This document shows positions 28,893-36,023 of a stretch of DNA of 64,000 nucleotides, piece by piece; position 1 is the first letter of the stretch, and each line of letters begins with the position of its first letter. The notes beneath the pieces were generated by a model. That model ran no database searches. It was not told where the DNA came from and saw only the letters and a list, made by a program, of their open reading frames with translations. Position numbers and translations under genes: made by a program. Location of the stretch: assembly GCF_900217235.1 (NCBI RefSeq), contig NZ_LT907975.1, forward strand, positions 248,001 to 312,000, in the 5' to 3' direction. The DNA is from Pseudodesulfovibrio profundus (lineage in GTDB: Bacteria; Desulfobacterota; Desulfovibrionia; Desulfovibrionales; Desulfovibrionaceae).

Positions 28893-29601
28893 GGGGCTGT
28901 ACCAGATAACTCCTTTGGGTTATCGGTATGGCAATGCGAAAAAGTCGTTTGAGCAAGGACAAGCAGCTTCGTTTAATCGAACATTTTGTGGCTGGCACGA
29001 CAGCTCGTTGCGCTGCCGATCTGGTTGGTGTGAACGTCAAAACAGCCGCCTATTACTTTCACCGGCTCCGGGAAATCATAGCGGTAGAAGAGTCCTGTGA
29101 AGGGATGGATTTTGGCGAATTTGAGGTCGATGAGAGCTACTTCGGTGGCAAGCGAAAGGGCAAAAGAGGACGTGGGGCGGCTGGTAAGGTTCCTGTTTTT
29201 GGAATCCTTAAAAGGGGCGGGAAGGTCTATACACAGGTGATTCCTGATGCGAAAGGTAAAACCTTGCTTCCCATTATTCAGGAAAGAATCCAGCCAGACA
29301 GTGTGGTTTACTCGGACTGCTGGTATGGCTACAATGTCCTTGATGTGTCAGCGTTCAAACACTTCCGAATCAACCACTCGAAGCTGTTTGCAGATAGCCA
29401 CAACCACATCAATGGAATCGAGAATTTTTGGAACCAGGCCAAACGCCATATGAGGAAATTCAACGGCATTCCAACCAAGCATTTTTCTCTGTTTTTAAAG
29501 GAATGCGAGTGGCGTTTTAATAACAGCAATCCGCGAAGCCAGTTTAAACAACTGAAACAGTGGGTTAGAAGACATATGGGCTAGTTATCTGGTACAGCCC
29601 C
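28893..29601 (+). mobile_element. IS1595-family insertion sequence (IS1016-like), complete
   Basis: A 709-bp element with perfect 19-bp terminal inverted repeats, GGGGCTGTACCAGATAACT at 28893-28911 and its complement at 29583-29601. It is flanked by an identical 8-bp direct repeat TTATTTTT (28885-28892 and 29602-29609). IS1595 members typically make 8-bp duplications. The single transposase gene is intact, so the element may be active. The right-hand repeat contains the stop codon of the lipoprotein gene. Confidence 0.95.
28928..29584 (+). CDS. IS1595-family transposase
   Basis: A 218-residue DDE transposase of the ISXO2/IS1595 type. After an N-terminal DNA-binding part (TTARCAADLVGVNVKTAAYY), the catalytic acidic residues appear in FEVDESYFGGKRKGKRG near residues 63-75, VYSDCWYGYN near 123, and HINGIENFWNQAKRHM near 155-170. 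The glutamate of the last block makes this a DDE version. The length matches the short IS1016-like subgroup. Its stop codon lies within the right terminal repeat. Confidence 0.93.
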   Translation: MAMRKSRLSKDKQLRLIEHFVAGTTARCAADLVGVNVKTAAYYFHRLREIIAVEESCEGMDFGEFEVDESYFGGKRKGKRGRGAAGKVPVFGILKRGGKVYTQVIPDAKGKTLLPIIQERIQPDSVVYSDCWYGYNVLDVSAFKHFRINHSKLFADSHNHINGIENFWNQAKRHMRKFNGIPTKHFSLFLKECEWRFNNSNPRSQFKQLKQWVRRHMG

Positions 29602-29823: not shown

Positions 29824-29919
29824 TGAATCTCCCCTGTGATCAAGAGTTGCCATACGTTATATCGCATTGATTCCGGATTTCAACACTTATTTGATGGCAT
29901 TCAACAATGTATCGATTTC

Positions 29920-30708
29920 CTATAAATTGAGTAGGGTAGATGCATTGCTCATGATTTGGTCTATTGCGGCTTCATTGAGCGAGAGGCGTTTTTTGAGTTG
30001 GTTAAGTTCAATACCTGCGTCAAATAGGGGATAATCGCTGCCGAAAAGCAGGCTCTCGATACTAAAAGCATCGAATAGTTCCTTCAGCATACTGTCATCA
30101 ATGAAGTCGAGCGAACTCGATGTATCAACTAAGATGCCTTTTCCAGCCAGGTGTTCTATGGCCTCTTTCCAGTGACGGTATCCGCCCATATGAGCAGCAA
30201 CAATAGTCGTTTCAGGGAAAGCTGCTTTGATTGCGGCAAGCTTGCGAGGGCATGATGGATTCTCATCCGGCGGGAGTGTGTCTCCTACGTGAAAAAGACA
30301 GATGAATCTGTCCTGAATCATTTCCATGACATCAAATAAGGCAGGATCATCCATCCGAAACCCTTGGAAGTCCGGGTGAAATTTCAATCCTTTTATCCCA
30401 TTGCTTTCCAGACGATCCAATTCTCTTTCCATCTGGTCGAATCTGGGGTGTACAGTCCCGAAAGGAATGAATTGATCATATTCCTTGCTGGTCTGTATGG
30501 CCCAGTTGTTGGCCGGAATGACTTGTGCTGGAGCTGTAGCGGCTGTCAGGACCACGGATTTATCGATGCCTGAAGTGGACATGCGCTGAAGTAGATCGTC
30601 AGCTGTGCCCGTTCCGACCGGATGAATTGAATAGTGATTTTCCAGTTGGTGCAGAACTTTATCGGCAATTTTCGGATGGAATACGTGAGTATGGAAATCA
30701 ATAAGCAT
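29920..30708 (-). CDS. Amidohydrolase-family (TIM-barrel) protein
   Basis: A 262-residue metal-dependent hydrolase/decarboxylase-like protein of the Amidohydro_2 family. It starts MLIDFHTHVFHP with the HxH metal motif and has GIKGLKFHPDFQGF near 108, a histidine in FICLFHVGDT near 138, IVAAHMGGYRHW near 170, and FGSDYPLFDAG near 225 with the conserved aspartate. No substrate can be inferred. It lies downstream of the thioesterase gene on the same strand with a 64-bp gap and may or may not be in that operon. Confidence 0.83.
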   Translation of the reverse strand: MLIDFHTHVFHPKIADKVLHQLENHYSIHPVGTGTADDLLQRMSTSGIDKSVVLTAATAPAQVIPANNWAIQTSKEYDQFIPFGTVHPRFDQMERELDRLESNGIKGLKFHPDFQGFRMDDPALFDVMEMIQDRFICLFHVGDTLPPDENPSCPRKLAAIKAAFPETTIVAAHMGGYRHWKEAIEHLAGKGILVDTSSSLDFIDDSMLKELFDAFSIESLLFGSDYPLFDAGIELNQLKKRLSLNEAAIDQIMSNASTLLNL

Positions 30709-30772
30709 GGCCGCGAAGATGCCAGATCAACGCGGCCATGTAAACGGCTGTTTTAGTGCTATGGGATATTTT

Positions 30773-31189
30773 TTAACCGAACAAGGATTTCAACCATTCC
30801 GGTACCCTGGTGGGTTTTCCTTCCTTGTTGACAGCTGCATGCTCCGTGAATCCTGTAGCGTGTAAAGTTTCCCTGTCTTTATCCCAAACTTCATATGCGA
30901 ATTTCATGGATGCACGTTTCCACAGACTGATACCGACCCGAACATGAATTTCATCATCGAAGCGCACAGGCGCACGGTAGCGGCTCTGCGCTTCACGTAC
31001 CGGAAGGATAATGCCTCGCCTTTCAACTTCGGCGTAACTCATTCCGTGCTCCCGTATGAAGAAGCTTCGAGCTCGTTCATATATATGCAGATATTCTGCA
31101 TAATAGAGAACGCCCATGGTGTCTGTTTCGCCATAAGAAACAAAGTGCTTATACCAGCTATGATTTGATGGGAAATCCGGCGTAGCCAT
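30773..31189 (-). CDS. Hot-dog acyl-CoA thioesterase (YbgC/FcbC-like)
   Basis: A 138-residue single hot-dog domain. The active-site region is FVSYGETDTMGVLYYAEYLH near 13-32, where the catalytic aspartate of the family sits (E-T-D-T-M-G), followed by YERARSFFIREHG. In many bacteria ybgC is next to tolQ, but here it is about 23 kb away, downstream of the apgM-like gene. Its ATG overlaps the apgM stop by one base (TAATG), suggesting coupling. Confidence 0.87.
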   Translation of the reverse strand: MATPDFPSNHSWYKHFVSYGETDTMGVLYYAEYLHIYERARSFFIREHGMSYAEVERRGIILPVREAQSRYRAPVRFDDEIHVRVGISLWKRASMKFAYEVWDKDRETLHATGFTEHAAVNKEGKPTRVPEWLKSLFG

Positions 31190-32385
31190 TATTTGAGCCC
31201 CAACTGGTCAAGTGCGTAAGAGAGCAATGTGTGGCCCTCTTCAAGTTTTACCCCTGTCTGGTTGGCCTGTGCTTCGGAGAAGCTTGGCACGTTGGATGGA
31301 GCGCACCCTGAACCGTTTATGAGGAAGGGCACAGCATCCATTGTGTGTGTCCGTTCGGCAATCGGGGTGAAGTGATCACATGTGACGATCCAGGCAACGT
31401 CTTCATCCTTAAGCGCTTCCCTCAGCGGAGCAACAACTTGAGCATCAAAACGGTTGATGGCTTCGACTTTGTCCTGTGCATTGCCGCCATGGCCGCATTC
31501 ATCAGGTCCTTCCAGATGAACGAAAACAAAATCGTTCTCCTTCAGAAACTCAAGTGCTGCATCAACTTTACCTTGGTAATTGGTATCAAGGAGTCCTGTA
31601 GCCCCTTCAACTTCAATCACATCCATGCCGGAAGCAAAACCGAGGCCCTTGATGAGATCAACTGCTGAGATGACGCCACCTTTAAGTCCGAAGGTTTCAG
31701 TGAAGTTCGGAAGGGAAAGAGGGCGCCCTTGTCCCCACGGCCAAATGGAGTTGGCCATCGACATATTGATATCTCTGTTTTCGAGGATTTCCTTAGCCTC
31801 AAAAACAAGGTCCCAAAGATGTGGGCTCTTGGAAAAAGCCCGTAGGTCAAGCTTAATTGGTTTATCTGTGATGTCGTGCGGGGGATTGATTGCTATCTGA
31901 GCATCATCACTCTTCGCGCCATCTTTCTGAACCAGCAGATGTCGATACTGAATGCCTGGGATAAAGGTATAGGTCTCGTTACCAAGCTTTTCCTGAAGCG
32001 CTTCAACTACAGGGCGCGAAACTTCCGTATCAATGTGACCGGAAGAGTAATCACGCATGTACCCGTCAATATTGAGCTGCGAAACGGTCACGAGGTTCAG
32101 GCGCCATACAAGGTCGTCTTCACTCAGTTCAAGCCCTTGAGCCGCGGCTTCGATGGGGCCGCGTCCAGTATGGTAGCGGGCAGGATCAAAGCCGAGCAGA
32201 GCCATGTTGGCAACATCGGATCCAGGCTGCATTCCTTCAGGAACGGTCTGGGCAACACCGACTATACCGTCTTTTGCCAGTTCATCCATATTGGGAGTAT
32301 CGGCAGCTTCCATGGTCGTCTTGCCGCCTAGCTCCTCCAGAGGCCAACCTCCCATGCCATCGGCGATGAGGTAGAGTACTTTCAT
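31189..32385 (-). CDS. apgM: ApgM-family phosphotransferase: phosphoglycerate mutase or homoserine kinase
   Basis: A 398-residue member of the cofactor-independent phosphoglycerate mutase group of the alkaline phosphatase superfamily. The metal/phospho-site start MKVLYLIADGMGG, the ApgM-typical PGSDVANMALLGFDP near 53-67, FVHLEGPDECGHGG near 292, and WIVTCDHFTPIAERTH near 335 are all present. It lies 12 bases downstream of hom; no thrB is seen nearby. Enzymes of this family adjacent to hom have been proposed to act as homoserine kinase, so that function should be considered alongside glycolytic mutase. Confidence 0.88.
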   Translation of the reverse strand: MKVLYLIADGMGGWPLEELGGKTTMEAADTPNMDELAKDGIVGVAQTVPEGMQPGSDVANMALLGFDPARYHTGRGPIEAAAQGLELSEDDLVWRLNLVTVSQLNIDGYMRDYSSGHIDTEVSRPVVEALQEKLGNETYTFIPGIQYRHLLVQKDGAKSDDAQIAINPPHDITDKPIKLDLRAFSKSPHLWDLVFEAKEILENRDINMSMANSIWPWGQGRPLSLPNFTETFGLKGGVISAVDLIKGLGFASGMDVIEVEGATGLLDTNYQGKVDAALEFLKENDFVFVHLEGPDECGHGGNAQDKVEAINRFDAQVVAPLREALKDEDVAWIVTCDHFTPIAERTHTMDAVPFLINGSGCAPSNVPSFSEAQANQTGVKLEEGHTLLSYALDQLGLK

Positions 32386-32397
32386 TATAACTTCCTA

Positions 32398-33696
32398 CTA
32401 GAGGATTCGGAACTTCACACACGGTTCTACCGTGAAGTCCATTGCATCGATTTCATTGATTACGGCGTCTACGTTTTTAGCAGCCGTTTCGTGGCTGATG
32501 ATGACCAGCGGAACGCCTTCCATTCCTGCTTCACCTTTCTGAACGGCCTGCGCAATAGAAACACCATGTTGCGCCATAGATTGAGTTATGGCCGCCATGA
32601 CACCAGTCTTGTCCGCCACTGTGAAGCGGAAATAGTATTTGGATACGGACTGTTCCGGCGGCAGAATGGTTGCACGCTCAATAGGCTTGTTGTCGAACCC
32701 GGTGTTGTCAGGCAACTCGCAGGAGCCCTTCATCTGGCGGGTCAGGTTCATAATGTCTGCCAATACGGCGCTTCCGGTGGGCAGGTCGCCAGCTCCCTGA
32801 CCGTGGAGCATCACAGGGCCAACGGCATTGCCTTCGATACGGACAGCGTTGTAATTACCGCCTACACGGGCCAGCAGATAGGTGTACGGAACCAGGGCAG
32901 GGTGTACGCCTGCCTCCAGTTTACCTTCCACATCCATTACATGGGCCAGCAGCTTGATGCGATAACCGAATTCGCGAGCAAACTGGATATCCATCGGGGT
33001 GACGCTGGTGATTCCCTGTACCGGGATTTCATTGAGAGGGTAGTCCACGCCGTATGCCATGCGTATGAGCACGCAAAGCTTGTGAGCAGTATCGAATCCT
33101 TCGATGTCAAAGGACGGGTCTGCTTCGGCGTATCCAAGATCCTGGGCCTCGGCAAGGGCAGTCTCGAAATCCATACCCTTGGTGGTCATTTCAGATAAAA
33201 TATAGTTGGCTGTGCCATTCATGATGCCGAGCATCTTGTTGATTTCGTCACCGGCGAGGCTTTCTTTCAAAGTTTGAACGATGGGAATACCGCCAGCGCA
33301 ACTGGATTCGAACATCAGGCCGACATTGTTATCAATGGCTGCCTGAAAAAGTTCCAGTCCATGTTCAGCCAGCAGGTGCTTGTTGGCTGTCACAACATGT
33401 TTCTTTTGTTCAAATGCATCAAGGATGAGGTTCTTGGCAGTATCCAGTCCGCCCATGAGTTCGACGACAATGTCGATATCAGGATCACTGACCAGTGCAT
33501 GCGGATCATCCGTAAAAGAGACCCCTGGACCTGGATCAAAGGCGCGTTTTTTGTTGAGATCGCGAACAAGAACCTTTTTGATTTCTATACGTTTGCCCAG
33601 GCGTTTTTCAATGCGCTCGGCGTTCATATCAAGAATTTTGGCCAAGCCGGAACCTACGGTTCCAAAACCGCCCAAACCAAGTTTAATACTTTCCAT
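32398..33696 (-). CDS. hom: Homoserine dehydrogenase
   Basis: Reduces aspartate semialdehyde to homoserine on the way to threonine and methionine. The 432 residues comprise a Rossmann NAD(P) domain (LGLGGFGTVGSGLAKIL), the catalytic domain with HVVTANKHLLAEHG near 97, GIMNGTANYILSEM near 155, the substrate-binding AEADPSFDIEGFDTAHKL near 190, and a C-terminal ACT domain (about 350-430) for feedback control. It lies 3 bases downstream of the aminotransferase gene and 12 upstream of the apgM-like gene, forming a tight operon. Confidence 0.96.
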   Translation of the reverse strand: MESIKLGLGGFGTVGSGLAKILDMNAERIEKRLGKRIEIKKVLVRDLNKKRAFDPGPGVSFTDDPHALVSDPDIDIVVELMGGLDTAKNLILDAFEQKKHVVTANKHLLAEHGLELFQAAIDNNVGLMFESSCAGGIPIVQTLKESLAGDEINKMLGIMNGTANYILSEMTTKGMDFETALAEAQDLGYAEADPSFDIEGFDTAHKLCVLIRMAYGVDYPLNEIPVQGITSVTPMDIQFAREFGYRIKLLAHVMDVEGKLEAGVHPALVPYTYLLARVGGNYNAVRIEGNAVGPVMLHGQGAGDLPTGSAVLADIMNLTRQMKGSCELPDNTGFDNKPIERATILPPEQSVSKYYFRFTVADKTGVMAAITQSMAQHGVSIAQAVQKGEAGMEGVPLVIISHETAAKNVDAVINEIDAMDFTVEPCVKFRIL

Positions 33697-33699
33697 TAT

Positions 33700-34911
33700 T
33701 TACCCCTTAGAGAAAAATTTACGCAGGTTGCGAACAGCCTGATTCGTGCGATGACGGTTTTCAACGAAGCTGAAACGTACGTGGTCATCGCCATATTGGC
33801 CAAATCCGAGACCTGGAGATACTGCGACTTCTGCTTCTTTGAGCAGTAACTTGGAGAACTCGACAGACCCCATGTGCTTGAATTGCTCAGGGATCGGTGC
33901 CCAGAGGAACATGGTAGCCTTTGGCGGGGTGACTTCCCAACCGATGCGGTTCAATCCTGCACACAAGGCGTCGCGGCGATCCTTGTATACATCCATAATG
34001 TCTATTACGGCCTTGTCCATGTCTTCGCGGCTGAATTGCGGGTTCTCGCCCAGATCGCCGTTGAGTGCACATGTCGCAGCAATCTGGATTGGCTGATAAA
34101 TGCCGTAGTCGAGATAACTTTTGATGCGGGTCAGTGCCTGCACCATGTCCGGGTTGCCTACGCAGAAGCCTACGCGCATACCGGCCATGGAATAACTCTT
34201 GGTCAGGGAGAAGAACTCGACGCCGACTTCCTTGGCTCCATCCGCCTGCATGAAGCTGGGGGCCTGATAACCGTCGAAGACGAAATCTGCATATGCCAGA
34301 TCGTGAATGACAAACAGTTCATGCTCTTTGGCAAAATCAACGATACGCTGAAAGAACTCAATTTCCACACACTGTGTTGTCGGGTTGTGCGGGAAGTTGA
34401 TAATCAGCAACTTGGGCTTGGGCCAAGTATGAGTGACGGCTGTTTCAAGGTTTTCGAAGAAATCCTGACCCGGTCCGATGGGCACACGTCGTACATCAGC
34501 GCCTGCAATGATCGAAGCATAAGGATGGATAGGGTAGGCCGGGTCCGGTGCCAGCACGACATCGCCCGGGCTGAGCATGGCCAGCGCCAAGTGGGCCAAA
34601 CCTTCCTTGGCGCCCATGGTGACACACACTTCCTGATTGCGATCCAAAGAAACGTCGTAACGACGGTAGTACCAATCACGGATGGCTTTACGAAGGCCTT
34701 TGATACCTTTGGACGCTGAGTACTTGGAGTTTCCTGGCTTGTACGCCGCCTCTGTCAGCTTGTCGAGAATGGGCTTTGGTGTGGGCACATCGGGATTGCC
34801 CATGCCCAGGTCGATGATATCCGCGCCCGCGTGGCGCATTTTCATCTTTAATTCATTAACCTGAGCAAAAACATAGGGGGGCAGTCTGTCGACTCTCGCA
34901 AACTTGGACAT
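33700..34911 (-). CDS. Class I/II PLP-dependent aminotransferase
   Basis: A 403-residue fold-type I aminotransferase. Visible are [19 protein letters not shown] near 36, the start of the cofactor domain [12 protein letters not shown]-like near 100, [11 protein letters not shown] near 172, and the PLP lysine in [18 protein letters not shown] near 238. The family includes alanine (AlaC), aspartate and LL-diaminopimelate aminotransferases; position ahead of hom suggests aspartate-family amino acid metabolism, but the substrate is open. The start at 34911 (MSKFARVD) has GAGGAG nine bases upstream; the longer frame has no support. Confidence 0.9.
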
Positions 34912-34949
34912 GTTGAAAAACTCCTCAATTTTATTAATGCAAGTTAGAT

Positions 34950-34979
34950 TACATACTCGCTTAAATCTGTAGCTGTCAA
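34950..34979 (-). promoter_or_regulatory. Candidate sigma-70 promoter of the aminotransferase-hom-apgM operon
   Basis: On the minus strand TTGACA and TATGTA are separated by 18 bases; the -10 box ends about 39 bases before the aminotransferase start codon at 34911. Confidence 0.5.
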
Positions 34980-35099
34980 AATGAAATTGCACTGATAATG
35001 CAAGGTGTATCTTGACCTCGGAAAGACTTTTTCATAGCGTCCTTATTTCAATGCTGTATTCTACGTCCTCGAGACGAAAAATTCCTTAAGGAGATATTA

Positions 35100-36023
35100 A
35101 TGGTCCAGAAATCCGAAACCATCTGGTTCGACGGCAAACAGGTTCCCTGGGACGAGGCAAATGTTCACGTCCTGACTCACACTCTGCATTATGGTGCAGG
35201 CGTTTTTGAAGGTATTCGTGCATACGAATGCGCAGATGGTTCGTCCGAGGTGTTTCGCCTCGAAGAGCACATGGTTCGTCTGATTAACTCTGCTAAGATT
35301 CTCGGAATCACCGTTCCGTATACAGCAGAAGAGTTGACCGAGGCTGCAGTTGAGACCCTCAAGCTCAATAAGCTGGCAGGTGCTTATATCCGTCCTCTGG
35401 TTTTCATCGGTGACGGCGCCATGGGTGTCCATCCCGGCGACAACCCCATTCGCACCATCATCGCCACATGGCCCTGGGGCGCTTACCTCGGCGAGGAAGC
35501 CCTTGAAAAGGGTATTGCCGTCAAGTGTTCCACATTCAATCGTCACCATGTCAATGTCATGATGACCAAGTCCAAGGCTTGCGGCAACTACGTCAACTCT
35601 GTTCTGGCCAAAACCGAAGCTGTCGCCGACGGGTATCATGAAGCGATTCTGCTCGACACCACCGGTCATGTTTCCGAGGGCTCTGGCGAGAATATCTTCA
35701 TGGTTCAGGATGATGTCATCTACACCCCGCATGCCGACGGCGTGCTCGGCGGTTTGACCCGTAATTCCATCATCACTCTGGCGAATGATCTTGGATATGA
35801 AGTACGTGAAGAGCCGCTGACTCGTGACATGCTCTATGTCGCGGATGAGGTTTTCTTCACTGGTACTGCCGCAGAGTTGACTCCCATCAGCTCCATTGAC
35901 CGTCGACAGATCGGTTCCGGCATTGCTGGTCCGGTAGCCAAGCTGCTGCAGACTGAATACTTCAAAATCGTCAAGGGTGAAAACTCTGATTACGAACACT
36001 GGTTGCATCGCTATTCCATCTAG
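35100..36023 (+). CDS. ilvE: Branched-chain amino acid aminotransferase
   Basis: A 307-residue fold-type IV PLP aminotransferase catalysing the last step of leucine, isoleucine and valine synthesis. Family marks are WFDGKQVPWDEANVHVLTHTL at the N-terminus, HYGAGVFEGIRAYE near 36, KACGNYVNSVLAKTEA with the PLP lysine near 158-173, DTTGHVSEGSGENIFMV near 185 and EVFFTGTAAELTPI near 250. AAGGAG precedes the ATG. Monocistronic, divergent from the aminotransferase-hom operon, with a terminator downstream. Confidence 0.95.
   Translation: MVQKSETIWFDGKQVPWDEANVHVLTHTLHYGAGVFEGIRAYECADGSSEVFRLEEHMVRLINSAKILGITVPYTAEELTEAAVETLKLNKLAGAYIRPLVFIGDGAMGVHPGDNPIRTIIATWPWGAYLGEEALEKGIAVKCSTFNRHHVNVMMTKSKACGNYVNSVLAKTEAVADGYHEAILLDTTGHVSEGSGENIFMVQDDVIYTPHADGVLGGLTRNSIITLANDLGYEVREEPLTRDMLYVADEVFFTGTAAELTPISSIDRRQIGSGIAGPVAKLLQTEYFKIVKGENSDYEHWLHRYSI

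Follow-up and report, generated by a model that had tools for sequence, protein, structure and literature searches.

A TIGR02535-type ApgM-like protein encoded beside hom in Pseudodesulfovibrio profundus, a candidate second homoserine phosphotransferase in a genome with a shikimate-kinase-type homoserine kinase

Organization of the hom locus

The window analyzed here, a 64,000-nucleotide stretch of the Pseudodesulfovibrio profundus genome (NZ_LT907975.1, positions 248,001 to 312,000), contains a minus-strand run of genes that places an ApgM-like protein of the TIGR02535 or 'ThrB2' type directly behind homoserine dehydrogenase. The run comprises a class I/II aminotransferase (33700..34911, 403 residues, PF00155), hom (32398..33696, 432 residues, NF004976 at 523.5 bits against a cut-off of 205, with a weak C-terminal ACT match) and the apgM-like gene itself (31189..32385, 398 residues, PF10143 and PF01676). 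All three genes are intact, and their coordinates confirm the tight spacing reported in the initial annotation: 3 bases between the aminotransferase and hom (33697-33699) and 12 bases between hom and the apgM-like gene (32386-32397). The aminotransferase is best matched by the alanine transaminase model NF006033, at 602 bits and under the cut-off of 647. As a unit, the operon makes sense for threonine synthesis.

The shared promoter that the initial annotation had also proposed finds no support. A consensus scan of positions 29850-35110 returned two promoter-like sites, where shuffled sequences lead one to expect 6.0, and both lie on the opposite strand, leaving no sigma-70-like site upstream on the operon strand. 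A TTGACA word can be seen by eye on the minus strand (34979-34974), with no good -10 element at normal spacing.

A fourth gene of the run, absent from the list in the initial annotation, encodes a YbgC/FadM-type acyl-CoA thioesterase (30773..31189, minus strand, 138 residues, TIGR00051 at 69.5 bits, cut-off 68.7), whose start shares one base with the apgM stop. Further along, a 218-residue open reading frame (28928-29584) resembles an IS1595-type transposase.

Family membership and active-site residues

The ApgM-like protein matches TIGR02535, annotated as 'proposed homoserine kinase', at 474.6 bits (cut-off 446.3), and its sequence marks it as a true member of the already proposed TIGR02535/ThrB2 family. 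The placement of this protein in a candidate family of non-canonical homoserine kinases, made in the initial annotation, is therefore sound, and the suggestion behind it is in print (PMC7311316, PMC9026213). Two mutase models are passed as well, TIGR00306 (apgM) at 476 bits against a cut-off of 320 and NF003242 ('cofactor-independent phosphoglycerate mutase') at 479 bits against 426; for a third, NF003104, the score falls well under the cut-off (282 against 489).

Archaeal mutase structures align with the protein over nearly its full length (2zkt, E 2.6e-61). It possesses D9, S56, D57, D295, H299, D337, H338 and H347, which we take to form the two-metal and phosphoserine site of an alkaline-phosphatase-like fold. 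This protein keeps all eight positions. Among 100 aligned loci (a set that includes 10 duplicates of a genome), 96 keep them too, while the remaining four deviate only at the Asp after the Ser, which is Glu in three and Leu in one. Outside this core, two sequence words differ from the archaeal mutases 2zkt and 3kd8, the two structures used for this comparison: their DRRAGR and LLxR are DYSSGH and WPWGQG in the window protein, with D[YF]S[AS]GH and W[PL]WGQG at these sites in the majority of its relatives. The relaxed motif D[YF][SA][SAG]GH is present in 49 of 55 genomes of the same family (Desulfovibrionaceae) and, elsewhere in the phylum (Desulfobacterota), in 33 of 35; three of the eight exceptions (L119, L053, L054) are off by a single residue. 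Since the arginines of the DRRAGR and LLxR words presumably bind phosphoglycerate, their replacement speaks for a substrate other than phosphoglycerate.

A 45-row tree places 14 of 15 Desulfovibrionaceae proteins in one supported group (97/96), and the clade holding this group is split from 2zkt and 3kd8 by a long branch (100/99). Eleven forks remain open, one Desulfovibrionaceae row (L105) is placed elsewhere, and a second ApgM paralog of the P. profundus genome forms a very long branch. This paralog (G000 C1:4044334-4045539; L017:7212-8552) scores 311 bits to TIGR00306 and passes no curated NCBIfam cut-off; by eye, it adjoins a small nucleotidyltransferase-like frame, and no threonine gene was noticed among its neighbors.

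Threonine-branch and glycolytic genes elsewhere in the genome

The whole genome was searched (4.22 Mb, 3 contigs). The absence of thrB, which the initial annotation had noted for the window, extends to the entire genome for the canonical GHMP-type kinase: no protein exceeds the TIGR00191 cut-off, the best match reaching 41.4 bits against 168.25. Two weak matches were considered and rejected as ThrB, one (in L019) being nearest to a heptose-phosphate kinase model at 374 bits, under its cut-off of 600, and the other (in L020) passing the IspE model TIGR00154 (190 bits, cut-off 139). Threonine synthase is encoded (thrC, 173 bits, cut-off 167), as is a strong gpmI (680 bits, cut-off 331), and PF00300 has four matches over cut-off, among which there may be a cofactor-dependent mutase. 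The combination that the initial annotation had named as contrary evidence, a canonical thrB together with the lack of any other phosphoglycerate mutase, thus does not occur, and the idea that the ApgM-like protein is the only phosphoglycerate mutase was rejected in view of gpmI.

A possibility unforeseen in that annotation was a non-canonical kinase elsewhere. The genome encodes two shikimate-kinase homologues, one of which (G000 C1:2731847-2732332, outside the window) passes NF040667, a 'homoserine kinase' model, at 237 bits (cut-off 197); none of 14 control genomes has a protein over this cut-off. Its name suggests that the model was built on DvMF_0971 of Desulfovibrio vulgaris Miyazaki F, whose mutants are rescued by threonine and which restores growth of an Escherichia coli thrB mutant (PMC5764234). 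In the same source, DvMF_0971 is 27% identical to E. coli shikimate kinase II and DvMF_1410 is 47% identical. The P. profundus pair reproduces this pattern, with 25.6% identity to E. coli AroL for the NF040667 protein and 46.7% for the other copy (AroL), a match that supports a shikimate-kinase-type homoserine kinase here. The corresponding proteins from two genomes of a related genus (g145) give 28.3% (L134) and 45.8% (L108) against E. coli shikimate kinase II.

By analogy with DvMF_0971, a working homoserine kinase is most likely encoded outside the window, and threonine synthesis in this genome can be explained without invoking the ApgM-like gene. What fails in the initial annotation is consequently not the family assignment but the role it drew from it: the proposal that the ApgM-like gene fills an empty homoserine kinase step was rejected, given an NF040667 kinase that is encoded elsewhere and is near-constant across the family. 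If it is a homoserine kinase, the ApgM-like protein is at most a second one in this organism, not the sole and probably not the main one.

Separately, a 376-residue frame was encountered at two distant places of the genome (L018:1586-2716 and L020:7663-8793), the printed first 330 residues being identical; it belongs to a repeated element and may lie antisense to a transposase.

Distribution within the Desulfovibrionaceae

Across 197 Desulfovibrionaceae genomes, NF040667 is passed in 187, and going by best E-values the protein is present in 193 (a split of 187 over cut-off, 6 slightly under and 4 without, read from the tally and the rows of best E-values). Those without it among the matches listed are G185 (only 1.3e-31) and G200, G231 and G318 (none). 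TIGR02535 is passed in 60 of the 197, and ApgM is present in 115 when lower-scoring full-length copies are included, of which 102 are clear, scoring 312 bits or more, and 13 divergent, at 196-281 bits. Every one of these 115 genomes also has the shikimate-kinase-type kinase; in this sample ApgM was never found without it. The kinase is found without a full-length ApgM in 78 genomes, among which G165 and G245, with weak or partial ApgM matches, were placed, and neither protein is found in 4. Within the family, the shikimate-kinase-type kinase is nearly constant and ApgM is variable.

Neighborhoods were compared in 55 loci of the family and 35 from other genomes of the phylum, a non-random set of best scorers and a hand-picked spread from which ten duplicate loci had been removed, and in which 25 family loci and 25 of the others offered about 1.5 kb of flank only. 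A hom gene lies on the same strand within 2 kb of apgM in 48 of the 55 family genomes, so that the arrangement exceeds chance. The thioesterase lies close behind apgM, within 2 kb, in 47 of 55. Among 21 congeneric genomes, apgM has a median ratio of nonsynonymous to synonymous substitution rates (dN/dS) of 0.159, compared with 0.131 for hom, values based on pairs with dS below 1.5 (65 of 210 for apgM, 81 of 210 for hom), with synonymous sites near saturation. In its own genus, apgM is under purifying selection, like hom.

Some lineages depart from this picture. In two genera (g133 and g145; 4 loci), the gene occupies the same locus with an ApgM that is 35-40% identical to the window protein, compared with 52-57% for hom; the DYSSGH motif is gone and the eight catalytic positions remain. 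Sequence comparison indicates that the motif has decayed in Halodesulfovibrio and Nitratidesulfovibrio-like relatives. A g145 ApgM query shares 86-88% identity with the copies of Desulfovibrio sp. A2 and of a Desulfovibrio metagenome-assembled genome, both of which we take to be close to D. vulgaris Miyazaki F. A scan aimed at D. vulgaris returned 80 loci, among them Desulfovibrio sp. A2, the Desulfovibrio metagenome-assembled genome and Halodesulfovibrio, and none from D. vulgaris. The g145 gene order aroL, aminotransferase, hom fits DvMF_1410 to 1412, and by this analogy D. vulgaris would carry an apgM-like gene after hom. If the assignment to a g145-like lineage is right, the D. vulgaris genetics concern an ApgM already without the motif and would say little about the motif-bearing protein of the window.

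Distribution across the phylum

The phylum sample comprised 148 genomes, 6 of them Desulfovibrionaceae and 142 from outside the family. Over cut-off, TIGR02535 is found in 122 of the 148, ThrB in 5 and gpmI in 89 (94 at E 1e-60 or better), and NF040667 in exactly the 6 Desulfovibrionaceae. When near-cut-off copies (G082, G037) and truncated copies (G101, G075) are counted as present, 124 of the 142 non-family genomes carry TIGR02535. Among these carriers, gpmI is over cut-off in 74 and not in 50, 4 of which have gpmI matched in two pieces below the cut-off.

Below the NF040667 cut-off, a second tier of proteins at 145-186 bits occurs in 23 of the 142 (e.g., L139-L149), the next listed matches reaching at most 119 bits. 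Their sequences make it possible that they are further shikimate-kinase-type homoserine kinases; neither hom nor thrC was found near them in the 11 loci fetched. Neither ThrB nor a second-tier protein is present in 102 of the 124 carriers, and hom or thrC lies within 2 kb of apgM in 20 of 35 non-family genomes. TIGR02535/ThrB2-type proteins are common in the phylum, often stand beside hom or thrC, and are what is usually proposed where a homoserine kinase is missing. In 12 of the 142 genomes (G002, G013, G015, G020, G052, G065, G067, G073, G083, G105, G139 and G141), which have no ThrB over cut-off, no near-cut-off TIGR02535 and no second-tier protein, the kinase step is unexplained in a search that did not extend to APH-type ThrB; some of them hold lower-scoring ApgM homologues.

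A second homoserine phosphotransferase in the course of displacement?

The distribution and residues described above suggest that in the ApgM-like protein P. profundus retains an ancestral enzyme, a second homoserine phosphotransferase that is being displaced, a reading to which we assign a probability of roughly 0.5. The protein would probably use its two-metal site and a phosphoserine intermediate on Ser56 to move a phosphoryl group from a small-molecule donor to homoserine; the product, O-phosphohomoserine, would then be used by threonine synthase. The family seems to have gained the shikimate-kinase-type kinase and to be losing ApgM lineage by lineage, with P. profundus among those that hold both. 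A more tentative proposition, which we would not back at even odds, is that about 100 species of the family keep a pair of homoserine kinases unrelated in both fold and chemistry: an ATP enzyme of shikimate-kinase fold and a phosphoserine enzyme of alkaline-phosphatase fold with a different donor.

Several observations weigh against homoserine as the substrate. With an NF040667 kinase present, nothing forces the ApgM-like protein to act on homoserine. BT2402, the family member of Bacteroides thetaiotaomicron, failed to rescue growth in an E. coli thrB mutant (PMC7311316), and no demonstrated homoserine kinase activity of any TIGR02535 protein was found in the literature covered. In PMC5764234, threonine rescue in D. 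vulgaris Miyazaki F is reported only for thrC, hom and the shikimate-kinase type. Outside the family, the presence of TIGR02535 shows no significant complementarity with ThrB (Fisher p 0.12), with the second tier (p 0.49) or with both together (p 0.13), and hom or thrC was not found within 2 kb of apgM in 15 of the 35 non-family genomes, many of which had 1.5 kb of flank only. The passing of two mutase models by the same protein belongs on this side as well.

If not homoserine, the acceptor could be threonine or another alcohol, the ApgM-like protein being a phosphotransferase of the threonine/aspartate branch while the shikimate-kinase type alone phosphorylates homoserine. This would account for a gene that is selected in its own genus even though the homoserine step is covered in all 115 ApgM-bearing genomes of the family; it would fit the failed complementation by BT2402, and it has a precedent in the L-threonine kinase role in corrinoid synthesis proposed for a TIGR02535 protein of Dehalobacter (PMC4285132). 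Against it stand the neighbors in the window (hom, the aminotransferase and the thioesterase), a subfamily motif found in 33 of 35 genomes checked elsewhere in the phylum, and the lack of both ThrB and a second-tier protein in 102 of the 124 non-family carriers. On balance we consider a different acceptor rather unlikely. A second phosphoglycerate mutase that sits in the hom operon by happenstance would explain the TIGR00306 and NF003242 scores and would suit the 50 non-family carriers lacking gpmI over cut-off, but it is an improbable reading in the face of the strong gpmI of P. profundus, the 74 carriers with gpmI, the low NF003104 score, the replaced DRRAGR and LLxR words and the supported branch that parts the clade from 2zkt and 3kd8. 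The suggestion that the gene is a leftover of an ancestral threonine operon with no present role appears less probable still: intact catalytic residues, a dN/dS near that of hom in the genus and a motif kept in 49 of 55 gene-holding relatives examined all speak for function, although 78 genomes of the family manage with the shikimate-kinase type and no full-length ApgM, and the motif is degraded in the Halodesulfovibrio and Nitratidesulfovibrio-like relatives.

The Desulfovibrionaceae offer a clean test of homoserine phosphorylation by TIGR02535 proteins: the same gene in the same place, a proven type of kinase in the background, and relatives that have kept the motif, let it decay or lost the gene. 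Should the two-kinase reading be true, the family would be in mid-displacement, with both kinases kept, the motif decayed and the gene lost all visible in living relatives. The locus also carries a warning, in that a TIGR02535 gene beside hom is by itself no proof that the genome depends on its product.

Comparison with known systems

The idea of a TIGR02535 homoserine kinase is already in print. It was proposed as a replacement for ThrB in PMC7311316, where GapMind found a TIGR02535 protein in 15 of 29 prototrophs apparently lacking ThrB and where BT2402 mutants require threonine. In gut genomes, ThrB2 is largely complementary to ThrB, 278 of 300 carriers being without thrB (PMC9026213), and PMC9765024 refers to BT2402 as 'the alternative homoserine kinase', with zinc sites conserved and the calcium site not. 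The window protein resembles these members in passing the TIGR02535 cut-off, in its threonine-branch neighbor and in a genome with no canonical ThrB over cut-off. With canonical ThrB (TIGR00191), which has no match over cut-off here, it would share the proposed product.

The setting differs. In most Bacteroidetes, the TIGR02535 gene accompanies thrC and a fused asd-hom and is taken to fill a gap (PMC9026213), whereas in P. profundus its partners are hom and an aminotransferase, and the genome encodes a homoserine kinase of proven type besides. The usual ground for the proposal, a genome without another known homoserine kinase, does not hold here in view of the NF040667 protein at 237 bits. No paper on the coexistence of ApgM with the shikimate-kinase type was found in the open-access literature, most subscription papers lying outside this scope. 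With DvMF_0971, P. profundus shares an NF040667 protein over cut-off, the same pattern of identity to AroL and a separate AroL, a likeness known here from sequence; this kinase has a fold unrelated to that of the ApgM-like protein, and its gene lies outside the hom operon. The archaeal ApgM enzymes (2zkt, 3kd8, 3idd) are homologous to the window protein nearly end to end and share its metal and phosphoserine residues. Where 2zkt and 3kd8 carry DRRAGR and LLxR, however, the P. profundus protein has DYSSGH and WPWGQG.

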